Assembly (NCBI GenBank): GCA_015064355.1
Contig: SVSJ01000009.1
Span: 1-64,000, forward strand
Origin: Oscillospiraceae bacterium
GTDB taxonomy: Bacteria > Bacillota > Clostridia > Oscillospirales > CAG-272
Direction: 5' to 3'
Length of the DNA: 64,000 nt
In this document: positions 12,350 through 63,631 of the stretch, one piece after another
Numbering within the stretch: position 1 is the stretch's first letter
Layout of the letters: the number at the start of each line of letters is the position of its first letter
The notes under the pieces: generated by a model
The model's database searches: none
Seen by the model: the letters and a program-made list of their open reading frames with translations, nothing else
What the model was told of the DNA's origin: nothing
Position numbers and translations under genes: made by a program

Positions 12350-13285
12350 TCAGTCTTCTATAGCGCTAATAAGTTTTGCCTGAAGAGCATATCTTGTAAA
12401 GTACTCACGGTTGGTACAGGTGGACAAGGTCAGCACTCTGTCCTCTTCCGTGAATATAGCGTCGCTGTAGCATCGTGAATTATTCTTCATGGCATTTGTA
12501 AATTCAAGAAACTCTTTCGTGGACTTAAAGTGAGTTTTATAGTAATTGTAATCGTATCTGGTCTCAAACACCGCGAATGGCTGGTACACATATATTCCGT
12601 GATAAGTGTAAACAATTATCTGAGTGGAATTAAAAAAGTTCTGGTTCAAGAACATTTCGATATCGTGGAACATATCCTCGCCACCGGTCATAAGATTGTG
12701 TCCGTAGAACACCGTGTTCATATTATCCGTAAGCTTGTCTGAACAGCGGTAATCAGCGAATATTGACCCAAGAGGCGAATAGCTGCCGTTATAGGCGTGG
12801 TTGAGGTAATAATCATTGTTTGAGGCCTGTGCTATGGGATAATCTATGCTTGTTCCGCTTATACTTATCCAGCCGTAGATATCCTTGTTAATTTCCCGAA
12901 GGGAGTCTATGCTGGCGCGGACCTTCATAAGTGCGGTGCTTGTTTCGTGGGAAATATCGGGAGGGGTAGGCTCGGCCTCCGGTGTCTGTCCTTCAAGCCT
13001 TGCGGTTATGCTAAGCTCCGAGGCATATCCAAAGTCACGGTCAAGCTTGCTTACTGCACGGGTGTCACCATTAACGATAATAATAAAATCATCGTCCGGA
13101 AACATTCCCTTAAGCTCGCCGTAAAGGTCGTTACCTCTTTTTCGCTCTGATATATCAAGCACAAACTTAACTGCACTTACAATAAATATTACAGAGAAAA
13201 GACAGAGCAGTACTATTCTGACAGCGCCCAGGGCACGCTTCCCTTTCGGCTTCTGAACAGCCTCCTCGTTAACATTTACTTCCAT
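12350..13285 (-). CDS. srtB: Class B sortase (first of two)
   Basis: A 311-residue membrane-anchored cysteine transpeptidase. One N-terminal membrane helix (about residues 22-42) is followed by a linker and the sortase fold: IYGWISISGTSIDYPI, the catalytic His in VFYGHNL, the catalytic Cys in LTLSTCT and the Arg in FTRYALQAKL. TLSTC and the helix-rich insertion point to class B. AAAGGT lies before the ATG at 13285. It heads an operon with rlmA and GT2. No substrate with a sorting signal is next to it, so its target must lie elsewhere, unlike the second sortase at 59971. Confidence 0.9.
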   Translation of the reverse strand: MEVNVNEEAVQKPKGKRALGAVRIVLLCLFSVIFIVSAVKFVLDISERKRGNDLYGELKGMFPDDDFIIIVNGDTRAVSKLDRDFGYASELSITARLEGQTPEAEPTPPDISHETSTALMKVRASIDSLREINKDIYGWISISGTSIDYPIAQASNNDYYLNHAYNGSYSPLGSIFADYRCSDKLTDNMNTVFYGHNLMTGGEDMFHDIEMFLNQNFFNSTQIIVYTYHGIYVYQPFAVFETRYDYNYYKTHFKSTKEFLEFTNAMKNNSRCYSDAIFTEEDRVLTLSTCTNREYFTRYALQAKLISAIED

Positions 13286-13437
13286 AAATACCTTTCGTAT
13301 TGCCGTTTCAGGTTTGCACGACAAAAATCTCAACTAAAAAATTTAAACATACACTATTATTATACTCCTTCTGCGAGAATTCCGCAAGAGTTATTTGATT
13401 ATTAATTCACTGTTTACATTTTATCCCAAAGATTTTG

Positions 13438-48235: not shown

Positions 48236-48270
48236 AAAAACCGGAGGTTTTATCCTCCGATTTTTTTATT
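48234..48270. terminator. Bidirectional terminator
   Basis: AAACCGGAGG-TTTTAT-CCTCCGATTT flanked by A-rich and T-rich tracts between the kinase (+) and the cyclic-di-GMP protein (-). Confidence 0.85.
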
Positions 48271-51200
48271 TTGTTTCAGCATTTCTGCACATAAGGAGCC
48301 AAGCATTTTTGCCGTGCCAGTGGATGTTGTTTGCATTAGCACTTACGTCAAGGTTAAGGTGCGGGTTCTTGATGGTCGTAACTCTGTCACCGCTTTCTAC
48401 CGCGATCGGGCAGTTCGGGCATGGTGCATCTCTGCCCATAAACACCTTGTAACACTTTTGACCGGGTTCCGCACTTGGCACAAGCTCACGTGCTCTGCGG
48501 TTGAGGAACTTAAGCTCGTACGTCTCAGGCTCTACAATGTAGGTCCAGCTGTACTGGCTGTTGAGCACGTTCTGAATATCCTCGAACGTTCTGGTGTTTT
48601 CCTCTTTACCTCTTTGCTTCAGCAGGAACAAAGATATGGTCTGGCTCAGAAGCACGAGAATATCAATCTGCTCCTTTGTCCAAAGTCTTGCTGAATTGTT
48701 GTCGTCAAATCCAACGTAACCTCGGAACTCGCCGTTATCAAGAATAGCACACTGAAGCATTGAGCAAATATTCTGGGGACCGAGAATGTCCTGCAGATGC
48801 TGTGCAAGCTTGGTTACGTCAGGCACATAGAAAATTCCGTCTTCATCGAACAGATCCTGGTATCCGGGAATGTCCGTAATGTAGCTGACGTTCTGCAAAT
48901 TGTCCTTCTCGCTACTGATTCCGACATTACACCACTCAAACGTGTTACTGCACTCGGTGTTATCTGCGTTGTTTTCAAATATATACACGCGGCTTACGTT
49001 AAGCTGGCGTCCAACTATTTCTATAAGGGAGTTGATGGTTCCCTCGAAGTCTCCGGACTCGTAAAGACGGTTGAACACGTAATGAGAAAGGTTGTTCCCC
49101 GCAAGTCCCAGATCTCTGTCCGAGTCGATCCGGCGGTTAACCATAGTCGCAATAACGTTGCCTGATACGCTTGAATCATAAATAGCGTAGCGGTTCTTGC
49201 CCATCTGCTTTGCGTGATACAATGCACGGTCAGCGTTCTGGAGCAGTACCTTATACGACTCGCCGTGATAAGGCGCAAGAGAAACGCCAACGGAACAAGT
49301 GAAATCGTTTTTTTTCAGGTATTCCCTGCAAATGCTCTGGATCATGCCGATAAGAGCCGCACATCTGTTTTCCACAAGACTCCTGTCGGGAATATTGTTC
49401 ATAAACACAAGGAACTCGTCGCCGCCGATTCTTGCAGTCACATCAGTGCCGCGGAACATCCACGAGATCTCAGACGCAACTCTCATAAGGATCGTGTCAC
49501 CGTACAGATGTCCGTACTGCTTGTTGATCTCCTTGAAGTTGTCAAGGTCAATTATGAGCAGCGCAGACAGGGATGATCTACCGGTTTCGAGGCGCACGTC
49601 GATCTGTCTCTTGGCCGCCTCGCTGTTGAGAAGCTTGGTAAGAGGATCGCGGTCTGCATTGTCATCAATAGATGAGAACAGGCTTCTTTCGTTGTCCACG
49701 CAGATCACAGAACCTATCATGCCGATAACAGCGCCCTCTCTGTTAAAGCGGGTAGCAACGCGTACACGGAACCAGCTGTATTTTCTGGTAGCATTGGCGA
49801 TACGCACGTTGAACTCTGTGAATTTGCCGCCTCTTTTTAGGGCTTCGATCTCTTTTCTGAAAATAGCAATATCGTCCGGGTGAAGGAGCGCAAGATCGGT
49901 CACCTTTGTTGTGTTACCGTTTCGTTCAGTTCCGCGGAAGATGATCTTATCGTCCTTGATGTCCAAGAGGAACATAGCGTCTCCTGCCTGCTCCACAACC
50001 AGTCGGTAGAACTGCTGGAATGATACCAGGTCAGAATTACCTGATTTTGCAGCAGTTGAATCAAACAATGCTCCGTTTATATATTCAAGTCCGTCATCAC
50101 CCGTGGACAGTTTTCCCTTGAGAAGAAGCCATACCACACCGCTGTTCTTGTTATACACAGGAAGCTCCAAGGTAACGTCCACACCAATCTCAAGCTGCTC
50201 CTTGAGTCTTCCTGCAGCTTCGTCGAATTCAACCGGGATAATCAGCTCTGCAAGGCGGTTGCGGTGCAGCTCGCGCATCTCCTCCGTGGTATACCCGAGA
50301 AGCTCGCAAATACCATCTGTACTTCCGGCAAGGGTAAGCCATCTGTCGTTAAGTATGGAAACTGGAATTCCGCCACCTATTGCTTCGGGTTGAAGGGCAC
50401 TTCCGCCCTGACTGCTTATACCAGCACTACCGCCCGATTCACCGGCTGGTTCCCATATTAGCAGTGCCCGTCTGTTCTTTGAGGAATCGTTAACACGCAG
50501 CGCTGTCACGTTATAGTAGGAATATGTACCGTCAGCGCCCTTGATGCGGTATCTGCGTGACTTTTTCCTCATTTCCGAGTCAAAGAACTCCTGAAGATAT
50601 GCGTCCATTCCCTCAGCAACCATCTCTCGGTCGTCGGGGTAAACCACCTCATTCGCCAGAAGCTCTCTTGCCTTATCCAAATTAACCGCACGGTTAAGAA
50701 TAGTAAGCTCCGGGTTGGGATTATACACCACGTGGAACAACTGACTGTCAAGATCTATTTCCACAACAGTTGCGTTCATATGATGCAATAGTACCTGGTA
50801 CTTTGAAAGTGCGTTTTGTACAGCATTTTCCTCCGCTCTGCTGGGTGGTTCAAGAGGAATGGTTATTGAATCAGACGCGGGAGAATATCCGTCCGAATAC
50901 TTGTTAGCCAAAGCCTCAAACTGGCCTGCTACAAGCTTGAAGCATTCAATAAGCTTGGGAGAGAATACTCCGCAGTCACCGCGCAAAATCATATTTGCCG
51001 CGTCCGTGCAGGAGTAGGCCTTTTTGTATACTCTTTCCGTGGTCAATGCGTCATAAACGTCGGCAAGTCCCACCACCTGGGCACAGATAGGTATATCGTC
51101 TCCTGCCAAACCGTCGGGATAACCCCGTCCGTCCCAGCGCTCGTGGTGATAACGGCAGATATTATATGCATATCGCATATACATATCATTGCCCATTGTT

Positions 51201-51937
51201 TCAACCCGCTGGAGAAGCCCGCATCCTGCTGTTGTGTGGGTCTTCATTATATCAAATTCTTCTCCGGTCAGCTTGCCGGCCTTGTTGAGAATTGAGTCGG
51301 AAATAGTGATCTTCCCAATATCGTGGAGAGAAGCAGCACTTGAAATAATGCTGATAGTTTCCTCTGTCAACCCGTACTCCGGGCAGCTACCTGCCACAGC
51401 CTCAAGCAAGATCTGCGTAAACCTGCGGATTCTCAAAATATGCTGGGCTGACTCCATGCTACGGCTTTCAATAATCGAAATAAGTGCGTCAACCATAACC
51501 TCGCTGGAGTGCATAAGAGCATCCTCCTGCTCTTTCACGAGGTTTCTGAGATTCCATTTATGAGAATGAAGTGTAATGAGATTTGATACTCTCTTGCTTA
51601 CGATTTCGGGATAGAATGGGTATGAGATCGTGTCGCCGGCACCATATTCGAAAGCAAAATACTCACTACGTGCATCTTGCTCGTCTATTACAGCAATAAG
51701 CGGAACGTCGCCGAAAACATCCTGCTTTCTTGTAAGGTCAGACTCCTTTGAAAGCAGCTCAATGCTGATAATTACGGCTACGATTGATTCACAATTCAGT
51801 TTGCCAAGAAAATCTGCCTGCTCGAAATTTCTGGCCTCGAGAATATTGTATTTTTCTTCAAATATTCTGCGTAGCTCATCCCGCTTCTCGGCAGAACCGT
51901 CAACAAGCAAAATAGTGTCGCGAATTTTTATCGACAT
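48266..51937 (-). CDS. Receiver/HD-GYP/PAS/GGDEF/GAF cyclic-di-GMP turnover protein
   Basis: A 1223-residue cytoplasmic signalling protein. Residues 1-125 look like a receiver domain (LLVDGSAEKRD), but the phospho-acceptor position reads IISIELL, with no Asp. HD-GYP follows (about 135-345), with HDIGK (205-209), YHHERWDGRGYPDG and intact GYP (272-274): a phosphodiesterase module. PAS-like segments fill about 375-755. GGDEF is intact (837-841), preceded five residues earlier by the I-site RGTD (828-831). A GAF-like domain and a Cys-containing PAS-like end (GRDAPCPNC) complete it. It can probably both make and degrade cyclic-di-GMP. It is divergent from the BTAD/dead-GGDEF regulator gene. Confidence 0.9.
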   Translation of the reverse strand: MSIKIRDTILLVDGSAEKRDELRRIFEEKYNILEARNFEQADFLGKLNCESIVAVIISIELLSKESDLTRKQDVFGDVPLIAVIDEQDARSEYFAFEYGAGDTISYPFYPEIVSKRVSNLITLHSHKWNLRNLVKEQEDALMHSSEVMVDALISIIESRSMESAQHILRIRRFTQILLEAVAGSCPEYGLTEETISIISSAASLHDIGKITISDSILNKAGKLTGEEFDIMKTHTTAGCGLLQRVETMGNDMYMRYAYNICRYHHERWDGRGYPDGLAGDDIPICAQVVGLADVYDALTTERVYKKAYSCTDAANMILRGDCGVFSPKLIECFKLVAGQFEALANKYSDGYSPASDSITIPLEPPSRAEENAVQNALSKYQVLLHHMNATVVEIDLDSQLFHVVYNPNPELTILNRAVNLDKARELLANEVVYPDDREMVAEGMDAYLQEFFDSEMRKKSRRYRIKGADGTYSYYNVTALRVNDSSKNRRALLIWEPAGESGGSAGISSQGGSALQPEAIGGGIPVSILNDRWLTLAGSTDGICELLGYTTEEMRELHRNRLAELIIPVEFDEAAGRLKEQLEIGVDVTLELPVYNKNSGVVWLLLKGKLSTGDDGLEYINGALFDSTAAKSGNSDLVSFQQFYRLVVEQAGDAMFLLDIKDDKIIFRGTERNGNTTKVTDLALLHPDDIAIFRKEIEALKRGGKFTEFNVRIANATRKYSWFRVRVATRFNREGAVIGMIGSVICVDNERSLFSSIDDNADRDPLTKLLNSEAAKRQIDVRLETGRSSLSALLIIDLDNFKEINKQYGHLYGDTILMRVASEISWMFRGTDVTARIGGDEFLVFMNNIPDRSLVENRCAALIGMIQSICREYLKKNDFTCSVGVSLAPYHGESYKVLLQNADRALYHAKQMGKNRYAIYDSSVSGNVIATMVNRRIDSDRDLGLAGNNLSHYVFNRLYESGDFEGTINSLIEIVGRQLNVSRVYIFENNADNTECSNTFEWCNVGISSEKDNLQNVSYITDIPGYQDLFDEDGIFYVPDVTKLAQHLQDILGPQNICSMLQCAILDNGEFRGYVGFDDNNSARLWTKEQIDILVLLSQTISLFLLKQRGKEENTRTFEDIQNVLNSQYSWTYIVEPETYELKFLNRRARELVPSAEPGQKCYKVFMGRDAPCPNCPIAVESGDRVTTIKNPHLNLDVSANANNIHWHGKNAWLLMCRNAETK

Positions 51938-52208: not shown

Positions 52209-53405
52209 ATGGAAGAAACATCTGTAAAAGTATGTCTTTTCGGAGATCTTTCCGTTTCACTTGGAAATAACACTGTCACCTGCTCCGGCACCCGTTCAAA
52301 AAAGGTGTGGGATCTCCTTGCCTATTTGTTCTATCACCGCGGCAGAAGTGTAACAAGTGACGAGATCACCTCCCTTCTTTGGAGTAACACAGGCGAATCT
52401 CCTAAAAACGCAATGAAAACAGCTCTTCACCGGGCACGTTCCCTCCTTGACTCTCTTTCCGACGGTCTTGGTCACAAAGTCATTCTGTTCAAGGACGGGG
52501 GATATTCTCTTAGCCCGGATGTAAAAATCACAGTTGACGTGGAAGAGTTTGACAGCCTGCTCCGCTCTGCACGGGACGCAAGCCCGGATGAGGCAACCGA
52601 TATCTACCTACGTGCTATCTCCATTTACACGGGAGACTTTGCAAATATTCTTTCATCTGAATCATGGGTGATCCCTATTTCGGCATATTACCACAATCTC
52701 TATGTTATAACAGTTGAAAAAATCGTTCCAAAGCTTGAAGAAGCAAAGCGGTTCAAGGAAGGTGTTGATATTGCAAAAGCAGCACTTCGTGTTGATCCAT
52801 ATCACGAACACTTCTATCAGCTTCTTATGAGATGCCTCTTGCAGACCGGCGCACGGGACGAGGTAGTAACGGTTTACGAGGAAATGAGCAAGTTGCTTCT
52901 CTCCACATTTGGTGTTATGCCCGATAAGGAAAGCCGCAGTCTCTACAGAGAGGCTTTAAAAACCGTAAACATCAGCACCGTTTCCCCGGATGCAGTAAAA
53001 GAACAGCTTACGGAAATCGGGAATATCTCCGGCGCCCTCCTTTGCGACTACGATTTCTTTAGAATGATGTATCAAGCAAAAGCAAGAATGATTGCTCGCA
53101 CAGGGGATGCAATACATATCGCTCTTCTGACTCTGCAAAGCAGGACTAAATCTGATATTGCGCAAAAGAGCATTGAGATTGCTATGGATAATCTGGAAAA
53201 GCACCTGTGCGCCTCTCTCCGCAAAGGGGATCTGATCTCACGTTGCAGCGTATCACAGTTTGTGATCATGCTTCCACAGGCAAATTACGAAAACAGTTGT
53301 GCTGTTTGTCAGAGATTTATCGATTCATTTGAGAAAAAATACTCGCACTCCCCTCTCAAAATCAACTATTTTGTTCATTCGGTTACACCGTCAACGGATA
53401 ATTAA
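52209..53405 (+). CDS. Winged-helix BTAD regulator with degenerate GGDEF domain
   Basis: A 398-residue transcription factor of SARP-like layout. Residues 5-100 are an OmpR-type winged helix (KVWDLLAYLFYHRGRSVTSDEI; DGGYSLSP). Residues 108-255 are the TPR-like bacterial transcriptional activator domain (VEEFDSLLRSA, AALRVDPYHEHFYQLLMRCL). Residues about 275-390 align with a GGDEF fold, yet the active-site loop reads SVSQF (347-351) instead of GGDEF, so no cyclase activity is expected. The I-site RxxD is kept as RKGD (338-341), exactly five residues before it. It may therefore bind cyclic-di-GMP as a ligand. GGAGG precedes the ATG. It is followed 32 bp later by the transglutaminase lipoprotein gene. 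Confidence 0.8.
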   Translation: MEETSVKVCLFGDLSVSLGNNTVTCSGTRSKKVWDLLAYLFYHRGRSVTSDEITSLLWSNTGESPKNAMKTALHRARSLLDSLSDGLGHKVILFKDGGYSLSPDVKITVDVEEFDSLLRSARDASPDEATDIYLRAISIYTGDFANILSSESWVIPISAYYHNLYVITVEKIVPKLEEAKRFKEGVDIAKAALRVDPYHEHFYQLLMRCLLQTGARDEVVTVYEEMSKLLLSTFGVMPDKESRSLYREALKTVNISTVSPDAVKEQLTEIGNISGALLCDYDFFRMMYQAKARMIARTGDAIHIALLTLQSRTKSDIAQKSIEIAMDNLEKHLCASLRKGDLISRCSVSQFVIMLPQANYENSCAVCQRFIDSFEKKYSHSPLKINYFVHSVTPSTDN

Positions 53406-53437
53406 CACTTATAAACATTTCAAGAAAGGGGTACGAT

Positions 53438-54655
53438 ATGCGATTCACCTTACGCAAAACAATAGCTTTGCTTGGTTTGGCAGCCCTTTTGTCAAGCTGT
53501 GGTGACGCGCGCATACCTGATGACACCCTCCCCCGTGACACAGAGCCGCCAGCGATAACCGAAGCTGATGCAACAGTTCCGGCAACAGAGTCGACAGTTA
53601 CGACCCCACCCGAGACCGAGGTGCAGGTAACAATTCCACCCGAAACAGAAGCGCCTATTACAACTGCACCGGAGACCGAATCACCCGCTACTCTTCCCCC
53701 GGAAACAGAGGCTCCCATAACAGCCCCACCGGAAACCATACCACCGGAGACGGAGATTCCGGGCTTTACTGAAATCGCAACCATAAACCCCGGCGAAATC
53801 GAAAACGAGGCTGACGCAATAAAGGATTCCCCTGCCATTGTAATACAGATTCCGGAGCTGCTCCAAGCCACCGCCCCCGGGCACGCAGAAAAAGACAGCG
53901 GCAGCGCGGTGATCGACTACTCAAACGTTACAGACGGTTACGTAACCGTGAAATATAAGCATAAAACCGGCACGCGAATCAAGGTGCAGATCAAGGGTCC
54001 GAAAACCACCTATACATATAACCTTAAACCTGAGGAATTAACGGTCTTCCCTCTCTCCGAAGGAAACGGAAAATACACCGTATCGGTTTACGAAAACGTG
54101 ACCGGCACGAAATACGCCACCGTTATATCAGCCTCATTTAATGCTAATTTGAAAAATGAGTTCGGGCCGTTCCTCTACCCCAACCAGTACGTTGACTACT
54201 CCCACGCACCAAATTCCGTAAACAAGGCATACGAGCTTACTGCAGGCTTGACCGACCCTCTCCAAATGGTAGCGGCAATATATGATTATGTTGTTGACAA
54301 TCTAACCTACGACAAAGAGAAGGCGGCTACGGTAAAAAGCGGTTACTTGCCGGAGTTAGACAAGGTGCTGGAAACAAAAACAGGCATTTGCTTTGACTAC
54401 GCAGCGCTGATGACCGGTATGCTACGAAGCCTCGGCATCCCCTGCAAGCTGGTTGTTGGGTATGCAGGTGATGCTTATCACGCCTGGATCAACGTGTGGT
54501 CAGAAAGCGAAGGCTGGATCGACGGAGCCATATTCTTTAACGGCACGTCCTGGCAGAGAATGGACCCCACCTTTGCCTCCTCCGCTCACCGTAGTCAAGG
54601 TATTATGGAATACATCGGTGACGGCAAAAATTACACCGAAAAATATCTTTACTAA
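53438..54655 (+). CDS. Transglutaminase-like lipoprotein
   Basis: A 405-residue lipoprotein: signal peptide with lipobox LSSC, then a Thr/Pro/Glu linker (about 25-110) of PPETEAPIT-type repeats, a beta domain (about 150-235), and a transglutaminase/protease-like core (about 270-385) with Cys in KTGICFDYAALM, His in GDAYHAWINVW and Asp in RMDPTF. Clostridial relatives are thought to act on wall peptides or surface proteins. AAAGGGG precedes the ATG. It is probably co-transcribed with the upstream regulator and ends just before the leader of the pilus operon. Confidence 0.87.
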   Translation: MRFTLRKTIALLGLAALLSSCGDARIPDDTLPRDTEPPAITEADATVPATESTVTTPPETEVQVTIPPETEAPITTAPETESPATLPPETEAPITAPPETIPPETEIPGFTEIATINPGEIENEADAIKDSPAIVIQIPELLQATAPGHAEKDSGSAVIDYSNVTDGYVTVKYKHKTGTRIKVQIKGPKTTYTYNLKPEELTVFPLSEGNGKYTVSVYENVTGTKYATVISASFNANLKNEFGPFLYPNQYVDYSHAPNSVNKAYELTAGLTDPLQMVAAIYDYVVDNLTYDKEKAATVKSGYLPELDKVLETKTGICFDYAALMTGMLRSLGIPCKLVVGYAGDAYHAWINVWSESEGWIDGAIFFNGTSWQRMDPTFASSAHRSQGIMEYIGDGKNYTEKYLY

Positions 54656-54760
54656 AAAAATGACAGAGTAATATACATAAGCAAAAGAGTTCAGTGTTTC
54701 TGTCAGAAAATCTGTGAGAAAACGAGCTTCTTGATCTTTTGACAGCTCGTTTTTTTGCCC
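54656..54760 (+). promoter_or_regulatory. Candidate RNA switch (attenuator) before the type IV filament operon
   Basis: Three segments can pair in mutually exclusive ways. TGACAGA (54661-54667) pairs with TCTGTCA (54699-54705). The overlapping segment CTGTCAGAAAATC (54700-54712) can instead pair with GATCTTTTGACAG (54733-54745), 13 bp with one mismatch and one G-U, which overlaps the 3' arm of the terminator. The terminator ends only 4 nt before the GGAG of pilC. This is the geometry of a transcriptional attenuator; no known aptamer was recognised. Confidence 0.45.
54719..54757 (+). terminator. Terminator in the pilC leader
   Basis: AAAACGAGCT, a 15-nt loop, AGCTCGT and TTTTTT. It stops transcripts from the transglutaminase gene, or acts as the off-state of an attenuator, immediately before pilC. 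Confidence 0.8.
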
Positions 54761-54771
54761 GGAGATAATTT

Positions 54772-55806
54772 ATGAAAAAACAAATCCTCTCATATTCAGA
54801 CATATCCGCCGTTTGCCTTGAGCTATCCCTGTTTATTCACGCAGGGGCAGACCCAAGCGCCGCTCTGATCATGCTGGCTGAAGAAACAAAAGCCCACTCT
54901 ATGAAGTCAGCCCTTTCCGAAATGGCTAAAAAAATTGACGAAGGCTCCCCTTTGTCTGCCGCAATCAAAGAATCGGGACTGTTCCCCGACGACGTGCACA
55001 AAATGCTTGTAATCGGAGAGAAAACAGGCCGAAGCGAGGATGTGCTTCGCTCCCTTTCGGCTTATTACGATCACAAGGACACCGCGGACCGTGAGCTTCG
55101 AGCCGCCCTTTTGTACCCGTCTATCCTTATGGCAGTAATGCTTTCGGTGATCGTTGTTCTGCTTACTAAGGTTTTGCCTATATTCAGCGATGTTTACGCA
55201 TCCTTGGGTGGGCAAATGACCGGTGTTGCGGGAGGACTCCTCCGATTCGGTCAGGTTCTTGATTCTGTTCTGCCCGGGATTTGTGTGTTTATTGGAATCG
55301 TCGCACTTATAATAATTGTCTTCGCTTCTTCCCAGGGATTCCGCAAAATAGTAAGTGATGCTTTTGATAAAATGGGGCAAAACAACGGAATCAGAAAGAA
55401 AACTGCCGCTGCAAAATTTGCCCAAGCACTTTCAATGTGTCTCCACAGCGGACTTACCCCTGCAGATGCCCTGGATATTGCCTCCGAGCTTTTGCCGGGT
55501 ACGGTTCAGGCTGAAGAATGCAAAAAAATGATGGAGAACGGTCTCTCCCTTGCTGATGCACTCCATGAATCCGGGCTTTTACCTGCTGCCGAATGCAGAC
55601 TTCTCGCCATAGGCTTCAAAAGCGGAAACAGCGAGGCAGTGGCTGATGAAATCACCCGTCGACTTGACAAGGACGCAAAAGAGGCTGTATCTCGACGCAC
55701 AGGAATGATCGAGCCTGCTATGGTGATAATCACCTCTGTTCTTATAGGATTGATCCTTCTGACAGTTATGCTTCCGCTCACCCACATTATGTCTTCTATA
55801 GGATAA
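54772..55806 (+). CDS. pilC: Type IV filament platform protein (PilC/GspF family)
   Basis: A 344-residue inner-membrane platform on which the assembly ATPase acts. It has two GspF repeats (about 10-130 and 210-330), each opening with a helical segment (CLELSLFIHAGADPSAALIML; FAQALSMCLHSGLTPADALDI), and three membrane helices near 115-140, 168-190 and 313-337. Length is as in compact ComGB-like members, shorter than the 400 of Gram-negative PilC. GGAG precedes the ATG. It heads the run PilC, four small membrane proteins, PilT. Confidence 0.9.
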   Translation: MKKQILSYSDISAVCLELSLFIHAGADPSAALIMLAEETKAHSMKSALSEMAKKIDEGSPLSAAIKESGLFPDDVHKMLVIGEKTGRSEDVLRSLSAYYDHKDTADRELRAALLYPSILMAVMLSVIVVLLTKVLPIFSDVYASLGGQMTGVAGGLLRFGQVLDSVLPGICVFIGIVALIIIVFASSQGFRKIVSDAFDKMGQNNGIRKKTAAAKFAQALSMCLHSGLTPADALDIASELLPGTVQAEECKKMMENGLSLADALHESGLLPAAECRLLAIGFKSGNSEAVADEITRRLDKDAKEAVSRRTGMIEPAMVIITSVLIGLILLTVMLPLTHIMSSIG

Positions 55807-55817
55807 TCAGACGACTT

Positions 55818-56135
55818 ATGAAACAAAAATTCAAGCTAAATTTTCTGTGGCCGGTTTTGTTCTTTGCCATAATCGCCGCAGTCATAGTCTCATTTGCACT
55901 TGCAATGGACGATCTGGCGGATAATCAGAATGAAGAACACAGGCTCCGTCTTGAGGAATCTGTCAGATTAGCCGCCGTTTCTTGCTATGCAAACGAGGGA
56001 AAATATCCGAAGGACCTTGATTATCTGGTGGAACACTACGGAATTCAGATAGACACCGATCGCTATACCGTTTATTATGAAGTGTTCGCGGAAAATCTGA
56101 TGCCCGAAATTACGGTGGTGGAACAAAATGACTAA
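55818..56135 (+). CDS. Small pilin-like membrane protein A
   Basis: A 105-residue protein with a short basic N-terminus, a membrane helix (about 8-30) and a helical-then-beta outer part: RLEESVRLAAVSCYANEGKYPKDLDYLVEHYGI has the amphipathic helix and CYAxEGxYPxxLxYL pattern seen in pilin-like clostridial proteins. No canonical prepilin cleavage motif is visible. It is 11 bp after pilC and overlaps the next gene by 8 bp. Confidence 0.7.
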   Translation: MKQKFKLNFLWPVLFFAIIAAVIVSFALAMDDLADNQNEEHRLRLEESVRLAAVSCYANEGKYPKDLDYLVEHYGIQIDTDRYTVYYEVFAENLMPEITVVEQND

Positions 56136-56592
56136 CCATTCATCAAAACGAAATCTCATTGGACTTGTTCCGATTCTGCTGTTTGTGATCCTGGCGGCAT
56201 CTGTTCTGTCGATCCTTTTGAGTAGCGCTGACACCTACGCTTCCATTACGGAAAGAGGCAATTCCACCTACACCACGCGCACCGCTGCCCAGTATATTTC
56301 AACCAAGCTCCATCAATCAGATGGAGTAGTCGGTGTTGAGATCTTCGGTCAGGATACTGCTGTGACTATTACGGAAACCATAAATAATCAGGAATATATT
56401 ACCCGAATCTACTGCTACGAGGGATATCTGTATGAGCTGTTTTCTAATGCCCTTGCGGATATGTCTCCGGAGGACGGCGAAAAGCTTTTGCCAATGGACT
56501 CCATGACCGCCACCGTTGACAATGGGCTTCTGACAATTGATATTGCGGGGCAAAGGATTGTTTTTGCCATACGCGCAAATAAGGAGGGGTGA
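56128..56592 (+). CDS. Small membrane-anchored filament protein B
   Basis: A 154-residue protein: one membrane helix (about 10-33), a Thr/Gln-rich helix (NSTYTTRTAAQYISTKLHQSDG), then a beta-rich head. The layout resembles DUF4860-type proteins of clostridial type IV filament loci; that family name is a guess. The gene overlaps its upstream neighbour by 8 bp and is followed after 2 bp by the next, so it belongs to the operon. Confidence 0.65.
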   Translation: MTNHSSKRNLIGLVPILLFVILAASVLSILLSSADTYASITERGNSTYTTRTAAQYISTKLHQSDGVVGVEIFGQDTAVTITETINNQEYITRIYCYEGYLYELFSNALADMSPEDGEKLLPMDSMTATVDNGLLTIDIAGQRIVFAIRANKEG

Positions 56593-56594
56593 AC

Positions 56595-56981
56595 ATGAAG
56601 AATAAATCCCCCCTCCAAATGATTGAATTCGTTATAATGCTTTTGGTGTTTGCGGTGCTGTCCGCGCTGTGCCTTCGCACTTTCTTCTACGCAAATGGAA
56701 TCTCAACGAAAACCGCCCTACGAGATGAGGCGATAATTGAAGCCCAAAACACAGCGGAGCTTCTCTCTTATCACAAGGGAGACTTTTCAGCCGGGGAAAT
56801 TGATGCGACTGCCTTGACTGACGGCCACTGGCAGATTGAACACGAAAATTTCACCATTGATATTGTAGCGACAGAGTCAGGCTCTCCCCTCCTTGCTGTT
56901 TACACAATAACCGCCACGGATAATAGCGGAGAAATACTGGCCGAGTTCCCTGTGTCCTGGCAGAAGGAGGTCGCAAAATGA
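56595..56981 (+). CDS. Small pseudopilin-like protein C
   Basis: A 128-residue protein with a pilin-like start: short Lys/Ser leader, then MIEFVIMLLVFAVLSALCL, a hydrophobic helix beginning near a Glu as in pseudopilins, an amphipathic helix (TALRDEAIIEAQNTAELL) and a small beta domain. No GFxxxE consensus is present. The ATG at 56595 is spaced 7 nt from AAGGAGG; a GTG two codons earlier is too close to it. It overlaps the next gene by 4 bp (ATGA). Confidence 0.7.
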   Translation: MKNKSPLQMIEFVIMLLVFAVLSALCLRTFFYANGISTKTALRDEAIIEAQNTAELLSYHKGDFSAGEIDATALTDGHWQIEHENFTIDIVATESGSPLLAVYTITATDNSGEILAEFPVSWQKEVAK

Positions 56982-57376
56982 AAAAAGAACGACGATCCTT
57001 CCCTCTCATCGGCGCCAGTTCTCTGATCGTGATCTTTGCGGTAGTGTGCCTTACCGTGTTTGCAATGCTTTCGCTAAACACTACCCTGGCAGGTGAGCGA
57101 CTTTCGCAGAAAAATGCTGACTCTACCGTGGAATATTACAAAGCCGAGGCGGCTGCACAGGAGATCCTCGCGAAAATCCGTGCCGATGAAACACCCTCCG
57201 AAGTGCAGCGCGCAGGCAACGTATATACATACTCCTGCAAGGTATCTGAGGGCAAAGAATTATTCGTAAACGTTACTGTGAACAGTGCAGATGACTACAA
57301 TATCAATATCTGGCAAGTTCGCTGGACTGACGACTGGACTCCCGACGACAGCATCAACGTCTGGGACGGAAACTAA
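56978..57376 (+). CDS. Small membrane-anchored filament protein D
   Basis: A 132-residue protein. The N-terminus FPLIGASSLIVIFAVVCLTVFAMLSL is one membrane helix, followed by a long amphipathic helix (AGERLSQKNADSTVEYYKAEAAAQEIL) and a short beta part. The pattern recalls PilX-like minor pilins. It starts within the stop of the preceding gene (ATGA overlap) and ends 22 bp before pilT. Confidence 0.68.
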   Translation: MKKERRSFPLIGASSLIVIFAVVCLTVFAMLSLNTTLAGERLSQKNADSTVEYYKAEAAAQEILAKIRADETPSEVQRAGNVYTYSCKVSEGKELFVNVTVNSADDYNINIWQVRWTDDWTPDDSINVWDGN

Positions 57377-57398
57377 ACCATTAACAGAGGTAAAACAT

Positions 57399-58457
57399 AT
57401 GACTGAAGTAACCGAATATCTCCGTTTAGCTGTAGAAAACGGCGCTGCTGATATTTTCTTTGTGGCAGGAAGTCCTGCAAGCCAGAGGCTCAACCGACGT
57501 TTATCTCCGCTTCTTGAGGACAAGCTTTTGCCGGCAGATACCGAGCGGCTCATATCCGAGCTGTACTCTCTTGCGAAAAGGCCAATGGACGCATACACAA
57601 AGAACGGCGACGATGATTTCTCTTTTGCAATTCCGGGTCTCGCCCGTTTCAGAGTCAGCACTTACCGCCAGAGAGGCTCCCTTGCTGCGGTGATCAGAGT
57701 GGTAGCCTTTAATATCCCCGACTGGCAGGAGCTTGGTATTCCCCAGGCAGTTATGGATCTTTCCGAAGTTACAAGCGGCCTGGTTTTGTTTACGGGTACT
57801 GCCGGAAGCGGTAAATCCACTACCCAGGCTTGTCTTATTGACAGGATCAACAAAACCCGCGACTGCCACATTATCACACTTGAAGATCCCATTGAATTCC
57901 TCCACCGAAACGCAAAAAGCATTGTGAGCCAACGTGAGATCGCAATTGACACTACTGATTATCTTTCGGCTCTCAGAGCATGTCTCCGTCAGGCACCCGA
58001 CGTTATTCTCCTTGGTGAGATGCGTGATGCGGAAACAATCCGTACTGCTATGACTGCCGCCGAAACAGGTCACACCGTGATCGCAACACTCCACACCAAG
58101 GGTACGGTGAACAGCATTGACCGTGTTGTTGACGCATTCCCTGCCGAGCAGCAAGGACAGATCCGTATTCAGCTTGCGTCGGTCCTTAACACCGTAGTTT
58201 CCCAACAGCTTGTTCCATCTGTAGACGGCGGTCTCATTTCTGCATTCGAAATTATGACCTCAAACAACGCTGTAAAGAATCTGATTCGCGACGGCAAAAC
58301 CCACCAGCTTCCTGCAACCATTGCTTCATCAAGCGGAGACGGTATGCTCTCAATGGATCAGTCACTTCTGGATCTTTACGCCGGTGGAAAGATCACAAAA
58401 GAAACCGCCATTCAATATGCTGACAATCCCGAGCAGATAAAACGCAGACTTCAATAA
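57399..58457 (+). CDS. pilT: PilT-type ATPase of type IV filaments
   Basis: A 353-residue hexameric secretion ATPase. N-terminal PAS-like domain to about 100, then Walker A GTAGSGKST (133-141), Asp box ITLEDPIEF, Walker B with VILLGEMRD (202-210), His box TGHTVIATLHT (223-233) and the late helix AVKNLIR (291-297) that is diagnostic for PilT retraction motors. No PilB-type extension ATPase (with its zinc-binding tetracysteine) is in the operon or window, so this protein may power both directions or rely on a distant PilB. GAGGT precedes the ATG at 57399; upstream in-frame starts lie within the previous gene. Confidence 0.93.
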   Translation: MTEVTEYLRLAVENGAADIFFVAGSPASQRLNRRLSPLLEDKLLPADTERLISELYSLAKRPMDAYTKNGDDDFSFAIPGLARFRVSTYRQRGSLAAVIRVVAFNIPDWQELGIPQAVMDLSEVTSGLVLFTGTAGSGKSTTQACLIDRINKTRDCHIITLEDPIEFLHRNAKSIVSQREIAIDTTDYLSALRACLRQAPDVILLGEMRDAETIRTAMTAAETGHTVIATLHTKGTVNSIDRVVDAFPAEQQGQIRIQLASVLNTVVSQQLVPSVDGGLISAFEIMTSNNAVKNLIRDGKTHQLPATIASSSGDGMLSMDQSLLDLYAGGKITKETAIQYADNPEQIKRRLQ

Positions 58458-58462
58458 AAAAC

Positions 58463-58500
58463 AGCCGAGATACCCAAATGGGTGCCTCGGCATTTTATTA
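58463..58500. terminator. Bidirectional terminator
   Basis: GCCGAGATACCCA-AA-TGGGTGCCTCGGC flanked by AAAAAACA and ATTTTATTATT, between pilT (+) and the PAS/GGDEF gene (-). Confidence 0.85.
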
Positions 58501-59838
58501 TTCTTCATTTGCGAAGTAAGCACAGTGTTTTCCATGGTTCTTTGCGCGGTACATTGCCCGGTCTGCTTTCTCAAAAAGCTCGTCTACGGTATATCCGTCA
58601 ACACCGTAAATACTTATTCCTATACTTCCGGAAACGTCAAGTGCACTAAGCTCACTGCATACATTTTTTAGGGAACCCACCAACGTTTCGGACTTGTCTC
58701 TTACTATATCTGCGCCGGAGATGTTCTTCATGAGTACCATAAACTCATCTCCCCCCACGCGTCCCACGAGATCGCTTTCGCGGAAGCATTCACGAATAGC
58801 TGCGGCAAATCTGGCAATGAACACGTCTCCCGCCTGGTGGCCGTATGTATCGTTGACTCTCTTGAAATTGTCAGCATCAATAACGAACAGGGCGTGCAAG
58901 TCTCCCTCACCGCTCTTGTCAAGGAAAGCCTTGGCGTATTTAAGCACAGCCGCTCGATTGAACAGACCTGTCATATCGTCTCTTTCCGCTGCCCACACAA
59001 GATTTCTCTCGTTCTCCTTCTGGGAGTGAATGTCACGCACGATAAGCATGGCGCACATATGGCTGTTTGATGGGTCTACCATGAACCTGATCTCGTCACG
59101 CACCCAGCGGTGTGATCCGTCTGAGAACCTGCGGACATATTCCAAGGTGAAGTCCCGCTTGCCGTTTGCGTAAATATCTCTCAAGGAATCTTTGGAGAAA
59201 TATCTGTAGAATGCGTATGCAGGGTCTTTTCTGTCTACAACGTTGCTGTACGCCGCCTGAATAAGTGCATCTATGTTTTCGTGGGCATCAAGGGAGTAAC
59301 CGTCGATGGTCTGGAGACGCTCCGTAATAACGCGCCAAGTGTTAATATCAATAAATGCAGCAAAGTATGTGTCATCCGGTAAATCAAACAAATACTCTAT
59401 CTCCGCCTGGTGATTCTGGTTTGCAAGATACTCGCGTGTTATATCACGGCTTACACCTGCAATACCAATGGGTTTTCCCTCTGCATCCTTAAGAACGTAC
59501 TTGGATGTGGAGCCGTATCTGGGTTGTCCGTTTTCATCGGGTAAGGGTTCGATATAGTCAAGTCTGTCCTCTCCTGTTGCCAGAAGCTTCGCATCGTCCG
59601 CAACATAACGTCTTGCAAGATTCTTGTCCTCAAATATATCATAGTCAGAGTGACCGATTATTTCTTCTCTGACATTCTTCCCTACCAGCTTAGTAAAGGG
59701 TACGCTCGCCGCCTGATACACGTGGTTAATGTCCTTCACAAACACCATAGAGGGTGTATCGTCAAGGATCGCCTGAAATGCAGTAAGAAGCAGTCTGGTA
59801 TTTTTGCCCTCTTTCAGTATTTCATCAATGTTTTTCAT
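58498..59838 (-). CDS. PAS/GGDEF diguanylate cyclase
   Basis: A 446-residue cytoplasmic enzyme that makes cyclic-di-GMP from two GTP. A PAS domain (about 20-140: DDTPSMVFVKDINHVYQAAS; IGIAGVSRDIT) is followed by a second PAS-like region (145-275) and a GGDEF domain (280-446): DDMTGLFNRAA, VIDADNFKRVNDTYGHQAGD, and intact GGDEF (362-366) with I-site RESD (353-356) five residues before it, so product inhibition is expected. TGAGGTGA precedes the ATG. It converges on pilT and lies downstream of the sortase gene. Confidence 0.94.
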   Translation of the reverse strand: MKNIDEILKEGKNTRLLLTAFQAILDDTPSMVFVKDINHVYQAASVPFTKLVGKNVREEIIGHSDYDIFEDKNLARRYVADDAKLLATGEDRLDYIEPLPDENGQPRYGSTSKYVLKDAEGKPIGIAGVSRDITREYLANQNHQAEIEYLFDLPDDTYFAAFIDINTWRVITERLQTIDGYSLDAHENIDALIQAAYSNVVDRKDPAYAFYRYFSKDSLRDIYANGKRDFTLEYVRRFSDGSHRWVRDEIRFMVDPSNSHMCAMLIVRDIHSQKENERNLVWAAERDDMTGLFNRAAVLKYAKAFLDKSGEGDLHALFVIDADNFKRVNDTYGHQAGDVFIARFAAAIRECFRESDLVGRVGGDEFMVLMKNISGADIVRDKSETLVGSLKNVCSELSALDVSGSIGISIYGVDGYTVDELFEKADRAMYRAKNHGKHCAYFANEE

Positions 59839-59929: not shown

Positions 59930-59964
59930 AAAAAAATAAGCCCGAGGTTGTTCCCCGAGCTTTT
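59930..59964 (-). terminator. Terminator of the sortase B gene
   Basis: On the minus strand AAGCTCGGGG-AACAA-CCTCGGGCTT followed by ATTTTTTTATT. Confidence 0.85.
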
Positions 59965-59970
59965 TCTTAA

Positions 59971-60897
59971 TTATGACACTTCGTCTGCTGTGTAGATTCC
60001 GCTCTGTACGCAGTGGACCACCCAGCGGAAACGGCTGTCGCCACTCTGACTGCAGGTGGACAGGGTAAGAAGCTTATCGCCATCTTCAGCCGAGGGTTTT
60101 ATCCCTGCGTCAACCACAGATCTGCTGATGCAGAAATCTATGAGTGCCTGCTGCCCTTCTGTGTCATTTAATCCAAGTCGCCAGCTGGGTCCCTTTGCTT
60201 CTGCGTTATAGGCAGAAAAAACATCATATTTCAGCACACATCCGTCAATGAGAATGTAAACCGAGGGATGTTCTGCCAGAAATTCGGGATTATCGTATTT
60301 TTTCAGCGCGTTAAACATTGCGTCAATATACATACGGTGACCGTATATTATTGAGTGAAAATCACCGAAATCAGCTGATGAACGATAGTCCAGATATATC
60401 GATCCTACGCGGTTTTTCATTCCCTCCCATGAATAGTCCAGGTAATAAGAATTATCCTTTCCCTGGATCAAAGGGTACGAGATCGAGGTCCCGGGAATGC
60501 AGATCCATCCAATAACGTCAGGGTTTACTTTTCGCAGAGCCGCCACATCGGTTAGGAGAAGCTCAGCAGCAAACCCGTCAACCGGGATCTCAGGCTCATC
60601 TTCTACAGGTATTTCCGTTTCAGCGGTTTCATCCGGGATGATCGTTTGGGGAAGCTGTAGAATTGGGGTTGCGGGAATGTCCGTATCAAAAGCCACTGCT
60701 TCAGTTTTGGATGTGGTCACCTGAGGAGTTGACTTCGCTTCCGAGACTCCAAACTCGGGGGTATGAGCGATCTCCTTTGCCAGATCGTAAGATTCATCTG
60801 CGCGAATATAGTTTATGAGATGATTCCCGGCACCAAAGAGGCTGATAACAAACACAAAGGCAAGTATAATGGTCATTATTTTTTTTACTTTTTTCAT
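59971..60897 (-). CDS. srtB: Class B sortase (second), partner of the PEVTE-repeat protein
   Basis: A 308-residue membrane-anchored transpeptidase: membrane helix (about 8-28), a Thr/Pro/Glu linker to about 115, then the sortase core with VIGWICIPGTSISYPL, His in IYGHRM, Cys in LTLSTCS and Arg in SRFRWVVHC. It resembles the first sortase at 12350 in length and motif order. GAGAGGAG precedes the ATG at 60897. It lies 81 bp after the wall-anchored protein gene on the same strand, with a weak hairpin between, which makes that protein's VPLTG signal the likely substrate. Confidence 0.92.
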   Translation of the reverse strand: MKKVKKIMTIILAFVFVISLFGAGNHLINYIRADESYDLAKEIAHTPEFGVSEAKSTPQVTTSKTEAVAFDTDIPATPILQLPQTIIPDETAETEIPVEDEPEIPVDGFAAELLLTDVAALRKVNPDVIGWICIPGTSISYPLIQGKDNSYYLDYSWEGMKNRVGSIYLDYRSSADFGDFHSIIYGHRMYIDAMFNALKKYDNPEFLAEHPSVYILIDGCVLKYDVFSAYNAEAKGPSWRLGLNDTEGQQALIDFCISRSVVDAGIKPSAEDGDKLLTLSTCSQSGDSRFRWVVHCVQSGIYTADEVS

Positions 60898-60939
60898 TAT
60901 GTTGTATCTCCTCTCTGATAAATTTGTTGCTATAAAGGC

Positions 60940-60962
60940 TGAGGTGGGTTTTCCCCACCTCA
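60940..60962. other. Hairpin between surface protein and sortase genes
   Basis: TGAGGTGGG-GAAAA-CCCACCTCA on the minus strand. The downstream tract GCCTTTATAG is only weakly T-rich, so it may be a leaky terminator that keeps sortase levels below those of its substrate. Confidence 0.5.
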
Positions 60963-60978
60963 TTTTTGCCCTTATTGA

Positions 60979-63036
60979 TTATGCGTTTTCTTTTCTCTTC
61001 TTGTCTTTTCTCATTACGAGAAGTCCGATTCCGGAAAGAGCTGCGATTGCGAACCATGTAATGGAATCGCCTGTGAGGGGAACATCCTCATCGGGGATGT
61101 CGGTAAGAGGAACCTCCTCGTCACCGATGTCAACGAGATCACCATTGTCGTCGCCATCGTCGTTTCCATCATTGTCATCTCCGCCGTCGTCAGAGGTGGT
61201 GGGATCATCGCCTGCAGGATCATCGCCTATGGGTTCTGTAACTTCGGGTTCGGTTACTTCAGGCTCTGTAATTTCGGGCTCAATAACTTCAGGTTCGGTT
61301 TCAATAGGTCTTGTTATTTCAGGCCACTCGAATTCGGGTTCAGTTATTTCGGGTTCGGGTTCTGTAACAACAGGTTCGGTTTCAACGGGTTTGGGATATT
61401 CGGGATAGGTTTCAATCGGAATAGGCTCAATAATTTCCGGTTCCAATGTATCGGGTATGGTAAATTCGGTCTCGATTACTTCGGGTTCGGTAACTTCAGG
61501 TTCTGTAACTTCAGGTTCAGTAACTTCGGGCTCTGTAACTTCGGGTTCTGTTACTTCGGGTTCTGTTACTTCAGGTTCTGTTACTTCAGGTTCTGTTACT
61601 TCGGGTTCGGTTACTTCAGGTTCAGTAACTTCGGGCTCTGTAACTTCGGGTTCGGTTACTTCAGGCTCTGTTACTTCAGGTTCAGTTACTTCGGGTTCTG
61701 TAACTTCGGGTTCAGTTACTTCGGGTTCTGTTACTTCAGGTTCTGTAACTTCGGGTTCAGTTACTTCGGGGTCTGTAACTTCAGGTTCAGTTACTTCGGG
61801 TTCTGTAACTTCGGGTTCTGTAACTTCGGGCTCTGTTACTTCAGGCTCTGTCTCAACGGGAACTGCTACGTAAGAGTTAACAAATACAACAGCAGTATCG
61901 CCTTCGAGAGTGAAAGCTGCACTTGTTTCGCCGTCTACAGTGTTTCCGTCAATAGTTGCAGTTGTGGTTCTGGTGAAACCGTCGATATCAGGAGTGCCTT
62001 CTTCAATAACATAGTATGTTTCGTTGAGGCTCAATACTGTTGTACCGATAGCATTTGCGCCACCAGCCTGAACTGTGAGTCGAACAGTGTCAGCCTTATT
62101 TCCATCAGCGGTGTATACACCAAATACATATTCCTTGTTTTCTTCAAGAGCAACACCGGAAACGTTCTTCTGGATTGTTACTGTTGCTTCTGTGAGAACG
62201 GGCTCTTCCGGAGGATTTGCCGGATCGTCGGGAGTTGTAACTGTCTGGCTTGCACCAAGCTTGAAGTCCATACCGCCGTATACAAACTTGCCTGCTTTCC
62301 AGTCTCTTGTTCTGCTGGAGCTCTGTCTGATCGTCTCACAAATATTATCGCTGTGCCAGAAGTTAACTGTCTTTGAGAAGGTCATGGGAACAGAGATGAT
62401 TTCACCATCAATGTTAAAGTCAACATTCTTTACAAGGGAAATTGTGTAGTAAACCGGTCTTTCAGATGTACCAACCGGGAAATCACCGTTAAATCTGCGC
62501 TGGCCTGCGTCATAGATCTCAGTGCCGGTAATATTGAACGGAACGTCTGATGTAATGATGAGGTTGCCGTTGTAATAGTCTTCTGCATCCAGCTGAACGC
62601 TTGAGCTGTAAGACACGCCATCCAAAATGTAAGTTGCATTCAGAGCAATGTGAATGTCCAAATGAAGAGCAGAGTCTGTGTTCTCTACAACCTGCCACTG
62701 TGCCTTTGCGGGAGCAACAACTGTGCATCCTGCTTCGCTGTGAATATGCTCTTCGCAGTCGCCCCAATAACGACAGACCATACTGTGCCGATGCTCTTCT
62801 TTTCCGCAGTCATATTCTGCAGAAGTCATTTTGATGTACTTCCATTCGCCATTTGCGGGAATCTCGCCTGCCGGAGTGGTGTTCTTGCTATCGGAATAAG
62901 CGTAATCACCTATCTCATATGATTCTGTGCCACTTGCAAAAATACCGATTGACATTGTACCACACATAAGGGATACAACGAGGATGAGAGTAAGTACTGT
63001 TACTCCAAACTTTCTGAAATTAAATCTTTTTGCCAT
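60979..63036 (-). CDS. Wall-anchored PEVTE-repeat surface protein
   Basis: A 685-residue exported protein. Signal peptide 1-35; residues about 75-105 hold a Cys/His cluster ([21 protein letters not shown]) that could bind metal; then a beta-rich domain and a Cna-B/DUF5979-like domain (about 275-390: [26 protein letters not shown]). Residues 394-521 are about 25 PEVTE repeats, then more Glu/Pro/Thr and an Asp/Gly segment. The C-terminus is a sortase signal: VPLTG (652-656), membrane helix and [10 protein letters not shown] tail. AGAGAG precedes the ATG. Its leader holds a class I cyclic-di-GMP riboswitch. Probably an adhesin or surface stalk. Confidence 0.88.
61476..61858 (-). repeat. 15-bp coding tandem repeat (PEVTE)
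   Basis: About 25 in-frame copies of a 15-bp unit encode Pro-Glu-Val-Thr-Glu, with one Asp variant. Third positions vary (TCGGGTTC, TCAGGTTC, TCGGGCTC forms on the plus strand), so the array is kept by protein-level selection and repeated expansion, not by identical DNA. Copy number is likely to vary between strains. Confidence 0.93.
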
Positions 63037-63037
63037 T

Positions 63038-63072
63038 TTTCAATCTCTCTTTCTATATTTTTTAGATTGAAA
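63038..63072 (-). promoter_or_regulatory. Riboswitch expression platform hiding the ribosome-binding site
   Basis: TTTCAATCT (63064-63072), at the 3' edge of the riboswitch aptamer, is perfectly complementary to AGATTGAAA (63038-63046), which overlaps the AGAGAG ribosome-binding site of the surface protein. The 9-bp stem would block initiation. Its 5' arm begins where the aptamer's closing helix ends, so ligand binding could decide whether it forms. Confidence 0.6.
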
Positions 63073-63152
63073 TACCGGCGGCCGGGCTGGCATAGTCTTT
63101 CGACCTTAGCTCCCTGGCTTTGCGTCCCGCCCTTTCGGGAGGTTTGCCTTTT
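63072..63152 (-). ncRNA. Class I cyclic-di-GMP riboswitch (GEMM-I)
   Basis: On the minus strand the conserved blocks appear in order: GGCAAACC, P2 stem CTCCC-GAAA-GGGCGGG with GAAA tetraloop, ACGCAAAGCC, the tetraloop receptor CTAAGG, a short GAAA-capped hairpin, CTATGCC, and GCCCGGCCGCCGG. The aptamer ends about 36 nt before the start of the PEVTE-repeat protein. Class I aptamers bind cyclic-di-GMP with very high affinity. Confidence 0.93.
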
Positions 63153-63190
63153 ACTCGTATTTGCTTAATTTTTTTGCGCCTCGCGCTGTG

Positions 63191-63631
63191 TTAACTGGAA
63201 TAGATCGGGGCAGCTCCCTTTCCGGGATTGCTTGAGTAGTGTAATGCGCTGTCCATCAGGAAAATCAGCTCAAGGACACTTCTGAAGCTTTCCTCGAGTT
63301 TACCCTCCGGCCAGAACACTGATCCTTGCCAACTTGCGTTCTGCCTGAACAGAATGCGTATCGCAAAGGTTGCCAGCTCTCCTTGTTTGTGATTATGCTC
63401 CTGCTCTTTTCTTACCGTTCGGCATCTCGGCTCACCGAACACCCTTAACTTTTCAAAGGACTGCGGGTATTTCGTTGTATCCAAGCTGTGCTCAACGATC
63501 TTTAAAAGCTCGCACAAACTCTGAAAAGGCCGAGTTTCGCGGTCGCAAGCTCTTGCAACCCGACCTCTTAGAACCCCATCATGGTATGAATCAACATAAA
63601 CCATGATAGTTCTTGTGCGTTCACCTTTCAT
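63191..63631 (-). CDS. Conserved hypothetical small protein
   Basis: A 146-residue cytoplasmic protein, not assigned to a named family. It starts MKGERTRTIMVYVDSYHDG and has later blocks FQSLCELLKIVEHSLD and ASWQGSVFWPEGKLEESFRS followed by VLELIFLMDSAL. Similar ASWQGxVxW..FRSxLEL patterns are, from memory, found in short clostridial proteins of unknown role. GAAAGGTG precedes the ATG. It lies directly upstream of the cyclic-di-GMP riboswitch on the same strand (38 bp), so it may share a transcript with the surface protein. Its promoter region carries paired direct repeats. Confidence 0.6.
   Translation of the reverse strand: MKGERTRTIMVYVDSYHDGVLRGRVARACDRETRPFQSLCELLKIVEHSLDTTKYPQSFEKLRVFGEPRCRTVRKEQEHNHKQGELATFAIRILFRQNASWQGSVFWPEGKLEESFRSVLELIFLMDSALHYSSNPGKGAAPIYSS

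Follow-up and report, generated by a model that had tools for sequence, protein, structure and literature searches.

A c-di-GMP-I riboswitch predicted to license translation of a sortase-anchored surface protein by releasing its start codon

The window, a 64,000-nucleotide stretch of an Oscillospiraceae genome, encodes on its reverse strand a 685-residue protein with the hallmarks of wall anchoring (Table 1). This protein has a signal-like N-terminus, a tandem array with 25 EVTEP motifs, and a C-terminal sorting signal made up of VPLTGD, a hydrophobic segment and the basic tail KDKKRK, features that bear out the wall-anchored protein with PEVTE repeats proposed in a first-pass annotation. The NF033073 (LPXTG_double) model scored 23.4 bits on the C-terminus, under its cut-off of 48, and Pfam gave no match in the N-terminal 312 residues; we refer to the protein as a presumed adhesin. 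It also has its own sortase, as had been suggested. A class B sortase gene directly follows, identified by TIGR03064 (163.3 bits against a cut-off of 153.75), by matches to SrtB structures in the PDB (E 3.5e-29) and by a TLSTC motif (TLxTC), and its true start is likely an ATG near 60897 behind GAGAGGAGA. The inverted repeat lying between the adhesin stop and the sortase start might determine how much adhesin is made relative to sortase, or how stable the mRNA is. Elsewhere on the reverse strand, another ORF (12350-13333) has a TLSTC motif resembling that of sortase B.

Table 1. Features of the adhesin locus, in window coordinates
Feature	Position	Strand	Basis
PAS-GGDEF diguanylate cyclase, intact GGDEF motif	58498..59838	-	Pfam, motif
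Intrinsic terminator closing the adhesin-sortase unit, 10-pair stem + ATTTTTTTAT	59938..59962	-	sequence
Class B sortase	59971..60963	-	TIGR03064, PDB SrtB matches, TLSTC motif
Inverted repeat TGAGGTGGGGAAAACCCACCTCA, perfect stem of 9 bp, lacks a T-run on the reverse strand	60940..60962	-	position between adhesin and sortase genes
Secreted, wall-anchored repeat protein, 685 aa, start AUGGCA	60979..63036	-	ORF; N-terminal region homologous in G046 (L008)
C-terminal sorting signal	60982..61085	-	sequence; weak NF033073
PEVTE/EVTEP tandem array, 15-base unit, ~25 copies	61476..61851	-	TRF
Right arm AGAUUGAAAAAUGGC, ends in start codon and first two bases of codon 2	63032..63046	-	MFE, accessibility
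Shine-Dalgarno-like AGAAAGAGAG, mostly hairpin loop in both states	63045..63054	-	sequence, accessibility
Switching strand GCCGGUAUUUCAAUCU, P1 3' strand and left arm of masking helix	63064..63079	-	sequence, folds
c-di-GMP-I (GEMM-I) aptamer	63074..63158	-	cmscan RF01051
P1 5' strand AAAUAC, partner GUAUUU 63075-63070, predicted ON state	63157..63162	-	sequence, P1-forced fold
'SWQG' protein, 146 aa, uncharacterised family	63191..63631	-	upstream of aptamer

An intrinsic terminator closes the adhesin-sortase unit, and the PAS-GGDEF gene beyond it has a promoter-like site of its own (TTGACG-17-TAAAAT at 59915-59887). We rejected an adhesin operon that includes this cyclase because the terminator at 59962-59938 and the promoter-like site lie between them, so the cyclase is probably outside the operon. 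A second GGDEF/HD-domain protein is encoded at 48266-51937, and the expectation of cyclases nearby thus held, with two GGDEF proteins detected by Pfam within the window. Type IV pilus-like genes occupy about 54.8-58.5 kb, and the region beside the adhesin locus (52209-58457) contains BTAD-type regulator, transglutaminase, T2SSF, pilin-like and T2SSE genes. Pilin-like and T2SSF genes also adjoin the adhesin locus of another genome of the same genus (G023, locus L029).

Upstream of the adhesin, the Rfam model for c-di-GMP-I aptamers (RF01051, GEMM-I) matches over its full length (model positions 1-87) with 77.4 bits and an E value of 1.8e-13, against a gathering score of 35. This covariance-model result confirms the class I aptamer that the first-pass annotation had proposed, and it is the sole RF01051 match in the genome (2.17 Mb, 79.9% complete). 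The class II model, RF01786, had no match in the genome, a weak negative given that control genomes yielded none either. In alignment to the model, the conserved core is present, including the GAAA tetraloop and GGCAAA / GACGCAAAGC. By every feature tested the aptamer is a member of RF01051, and it is predicted to bind c-di-GMP. Just upstream of the core, AAAUAC is complementary to GUAUUU at the opposite end, and we take this putative pairing as helix P1; the Rfam consensus structure shows no pairing there. The adhesin AUG (63036) begins 38 nt downstream of the aptamer.

On its other side, the aptamer is preceded by a gene for an SWQG-type protein, whose stop codon and P1 are separated by about 30 nt. 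The aptamer may thus lie between the SWQG and adhesin genes of one transcript, an intercistronic position that would suit translational control. A protein of this type, about 145 residues long, is encoded within roughly 210 nt upstream of 17 of the 40 related leaders among the matches listed. It consists of two copies of a strand-strand-strand-helix unit, as judged from a structural model (pLDDT 80.9) and from its sequence halves; it matched nothing in Pfam or NCBIfam, and a structure search returned no significant PDB fold match. Members of the SWQG family also precede surface-protein genes with no intervening aptamer.

The short leader between aptamer and adhesin can fold in two ways. In the minimum free energy (MFE) fold, whose energy beats those of 198 of 200 shuffles, a 9-bp stem joins 63072-63064 (UUUCAAUCU) to 63046-63038 (AGAUUGAAA). 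The first-pass annotation had drawn this stem as a cover for the ribosome-binding site. The stem is indeed found, but the Shine-Dalgarno-like site sits in its loop, and it is the start codon that is masked. The 9 bp are the inner part of a longer helix, whose outer part pairs GCCG (63079-63076) with UGGC (63035-63032). In this helix the strand GCC-GGUAUUUCAAUCU, which includes the 3' strand of P1, is paired with AGAUUGAAAAAUGGC, and the start codon is buried. With P1 forced to form, bases 2-5 of AUGGC have a probability of being unpaired of 0.64-0.99, compared to 0-0.04 in the free fold; the first base is unpaired either way. Of 20000 shuffled linkers, just 7 attained the complementarity of the window linker. 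We also considered the Shine-Dalgarno as the masked site and rejected it at this locus, where AGAAAGAGAG is accessible in the loop in both folds; in several relatives, for example L130, the masking arm reaches GGAG too. In the folding models, both states contain an inner CAAUCU/AGAUUG hairpin. Since these 6 bp beside the Shine-Dalgarno may remain paired after the switch to ON, they leave the window's Shine-Dalgarno weak or in part hindered whichever state is adopted.

P1 and the masking helix compete for bases within 63079-63070 and are mutually exclusive, and this coupling suggests how the switch would work. Without c-di-GMP, the GCC-GGUAUUUCAAUCU strand just 3' of the aptamer would pair with the right arm and hide the start codon. 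With c-di-GMP bound, P1 would form with the same strand, the outer masking helix would open and the AUG would be freed, while the short inner hairpin may stay. Because both helices need the same bases, a ligand-stabilized P1 excludes start-codon masking, and a translational ON switch is predicted. The free fold (-37.7 kcal/mol) lies 6.3 kcal/mol below the P1-forced fold (-31.4 kcal/mol), a gap that nanomolar ligand binding could pay. In the Vibrio cholerae switch Vc2, loss of P1 abolishes ligand binding (PMC9262584); since P1 frees AUGGC in our folds, ligand should expose the start codon here. Cd1 has no detectable P1 (PMC9262584), so the ligand need not always work through this helix. The mechanism first proposed for the locus was placed at a level that the evidence supports, translation, but it covered the wrong site, missed the coupling through the shared P1 strand and gave no direction, for which the evidence points to ON.

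We compared the locus with related leaders. A genome from another family of the order (G046) has the same leader layout, with a homologous protein downstream (L008) and a homologous gene upstream, and the layout recurs before other surface proteins in G001 and G023, which belong to the window's genus, and in G211, from its family. A pattern scan of the genome collection, which required ATGGCA, brought many more leaders from Oscillospiraceae among the matches listed, with Oscillibacter valericigenes An860, O. ruminantium GH1 and Flavonifractor sp. An100 among the carriers. In this pattern-selected set, again among the matches listed, 16 of the 18 complete proteins encoded downstream have a C-terminal sorting signal, frequently as a doubled motif, (E/D)xVPLA...PxTGD, and a class B-like sortase motif adjoins in several loci.

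For 40 leaders of this layout we computed, in fixed windows, the energies of the duplexes that each left arm forms with the right arm of the same leader and with those of other leaders. Own arms won, with z of -7.7 among 26 leaders thinned to under 80% identity and of -7.3 and -5.1 in smaller sets of 20 and 13, and 0 of 5000 permutations reached the observed value. The P1 5' strand likewise preferred its own left arm in these relatives (z -4.7 to -3.4), so that both helices covary. The arms vary strongly between leaders, with compensating changes such as UUUCG/CGAAA, UUUUGU/ACAAAA, UUCCG/CGGAA and CAAUC/GAUUG; a further arm pair is UUCGCU/AGCGA. Although relatedness can inflate tests of this kind, the thinning and the controls (z -0.3 to -1.0 for a reversed right arm, -0.2 to 0.4 for a coding segment) argue against it as the whole cause of the signal. 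Hits outside the order were tried as a negative control and rejected: they show complementarity too, and some resemble terminators in which ATGGC falls by chance within the 3' arm. Because these hits are not a clean control, we relied on the reversed right arms and the coding segments. When RNAalifold was run on a MAFFT alignment, it recovered just the GCC:GGC pairs and one more, nearly invariant pairs at the outer end, since bulged arms are misaligned; the register-free swap test was used for this reason.

Since the pattern-selected set was chosen for ATGGCA, independent support for the motif comes only from a survey that was blind to the start codon. RF01051 searches of relatives, the family and the order gave about 138 leaders, gathered whatever their start codon and then classified by simple rules. 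These crude rules called 87 terminator-like and left 33 unclassified, and they initially miscalled the window leader owing to its atypical Shine-Dalgarno. An AUGGC start was found in 11 of the 17 short leaders free of T-runs, compared to 5 of 102 others (Fisher p 4e-8), and two of those five (L184 and L210) are themselves of the start-codon-masking type with a T-run in the loop. Leader L234 starts with AUGAUGGC. Altogether about 14 of the roughly 138 leaders, from families f1, f10, f12, f14 and f16, are of the start-codon-masking type. In many terminator-type leaders, such as L007, the same P1 3' strand forms one arm of the terminator, so the logic is common to both types and the output alone differs. 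Outside the order, in Acetoanaerobium pronyense (L064), the P1 3' strand CUACCAUCC is complementary to the Shine-Dalgarno region GGGUGGAGG, and this leader may possibly follow the same logic with masking of the Shine-Dalgarno instead of the start codon.

Taken together, these results make it likely that the GEMM-I aptamer controls translation of the sortase-anchored surface protein as an ON switch, and we infer that it acts at translation rather than on mRNA stability. The hairpin could instead belong to an OFF switch, or it could work without ligand, as a constitutive element of the 5' leader that adjusts translation or mRNA stability, with an aptamer that acts otherwise or is vestigial. Persistence of the inner hairpin in both predicted states would fit such a role, as would the OFF behavior of Vc2, the best-studied translational GEMM-I switch (PMC9262584). 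However, because of the shared bases the complete masking helix cannot coexist with a ligand-bound aptamer; covariation across species is seen for both helices, and the aptamer is well conserved, all of which make this explanation unlikely.

A switch that acts on transcription, through termination or Rho, is very unlikely. Most GEMM-I leaders of the order look terminator-based, many with the same P1 3' strand as an arm, and Rho-dependent secondary effects of poor translation are possible, but the window leader is only 38 nt long and has no T-run from the aptamer to the AUG (63073-63037). Least probable is a cyclic dinucleotide ligand other than c-di-GMP, for instance 3',3'-cGAMP. Some GEMM-I aptamers do prefer cGAMP, with G20 as a selectivity factor (PMC9262584, PMC6274999), and several aptamers in the order read AGCAAA rather than GGCAAA. 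The window keeps GGCAAA (63148, to which G20 presumably maps), and its neighborhood encodes intact GGDEF proteins. The aptamers with AGCAAA at the presumed selectivity position (L016, L042, L044, L045, L051 and L057) are candidates for cGAMP binding or relaxed specificity, judging from this motif.

Having weighed these alternatives, we retain the translational ON switch and, somewhat more in favor than against, extend it to the order. Under this proposal, members share a GEMM-I platform in which c-di-GMP licenses translation by start-codon release: the P1 strand would serve as the anti-start, codon 2 would be held as GCN (Ala) by pairing, and the switch would be a post-transcriptional checkpoint on a group of sortase-anchored surface proteins, often behind a cotranscribed SWQG gene. 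An RNA structure constraint on the second codon is thereby suggested. Recurrence of the platform before wall-anchored proteins across the gut bacteria of one order looks like a common control of cell-surface stickiness, and the cultured carriers named above make c-di-GMP-set surface attachment in commensals directly testable.

The RF01051 aptamer is known in kind, its expression platform is a new variation, and its function is predicted. In open-licence papers we found no start-codon-masking GEMM-I platform described in this order, and among the experimentally described GEMM-I switches that we found, none turns translation on by an identified mechanism. Transcription termination is said to be the preferred mode of Gram-positive riboswitches (PMC11477304), and in Bc1 transcription and translation are affected in opposite senses (PMC11218506). 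The comparative evidence presented here defines a predicted translational ON GEMM-I switch to the nucleotide and ties it to wall-anchored proteins of gut and rumen bacteria.

Individual elements of this switch have counterparts in known systems. The comparison with Clostridioides difficile made in the first-pass annotation holds in that c-di-GMP turns on sortase-anchored collagen-binding and thioester adhesins there, but it is loose: the switches before CD2831 and CD3246 belong to class II, which has no match in the window's genome, and for the class I switches of C. difficile the reported control is transcriptional and OFF (PMC11477304, PMC6200980). Vc1, before gbpA in V. cholerae, is likewise a GEMM-I aptamer upstream of a colonization factor, with less expression when c-di-GMP is reduced (PMC4744006). 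Its leader exceeds 200 nt, compared to 38 nt in the window, and its authors found no terminator or anti-Shine-Dalgarno and left the mechanism open. Vc2 shares with our switch GEMM-I class, translational control and the key role of P1 stability, but it is described as an OFF switch that masks a distant ribosome-binding site (PMC9262584), whereas in the window the P1 3' strand masks the start codon and ON is predicted. Bc2 of Bacillus thuringiensis, before the collagen adhesion protein Cap, resembles the window in aptamer class, ON logic and wall-anchored target; it uses a terminator and anti-terminator (PMC4933901), in contrast to the terminator-free window leader with its masked start codon. 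Finally, the Geobacter pilM cGAMP ON switch has a terminator instead of a start-codon helix and a different ligand, but in it, too, the aptamer and the alternative fold exclude each other through one common strand (PMC9262584).
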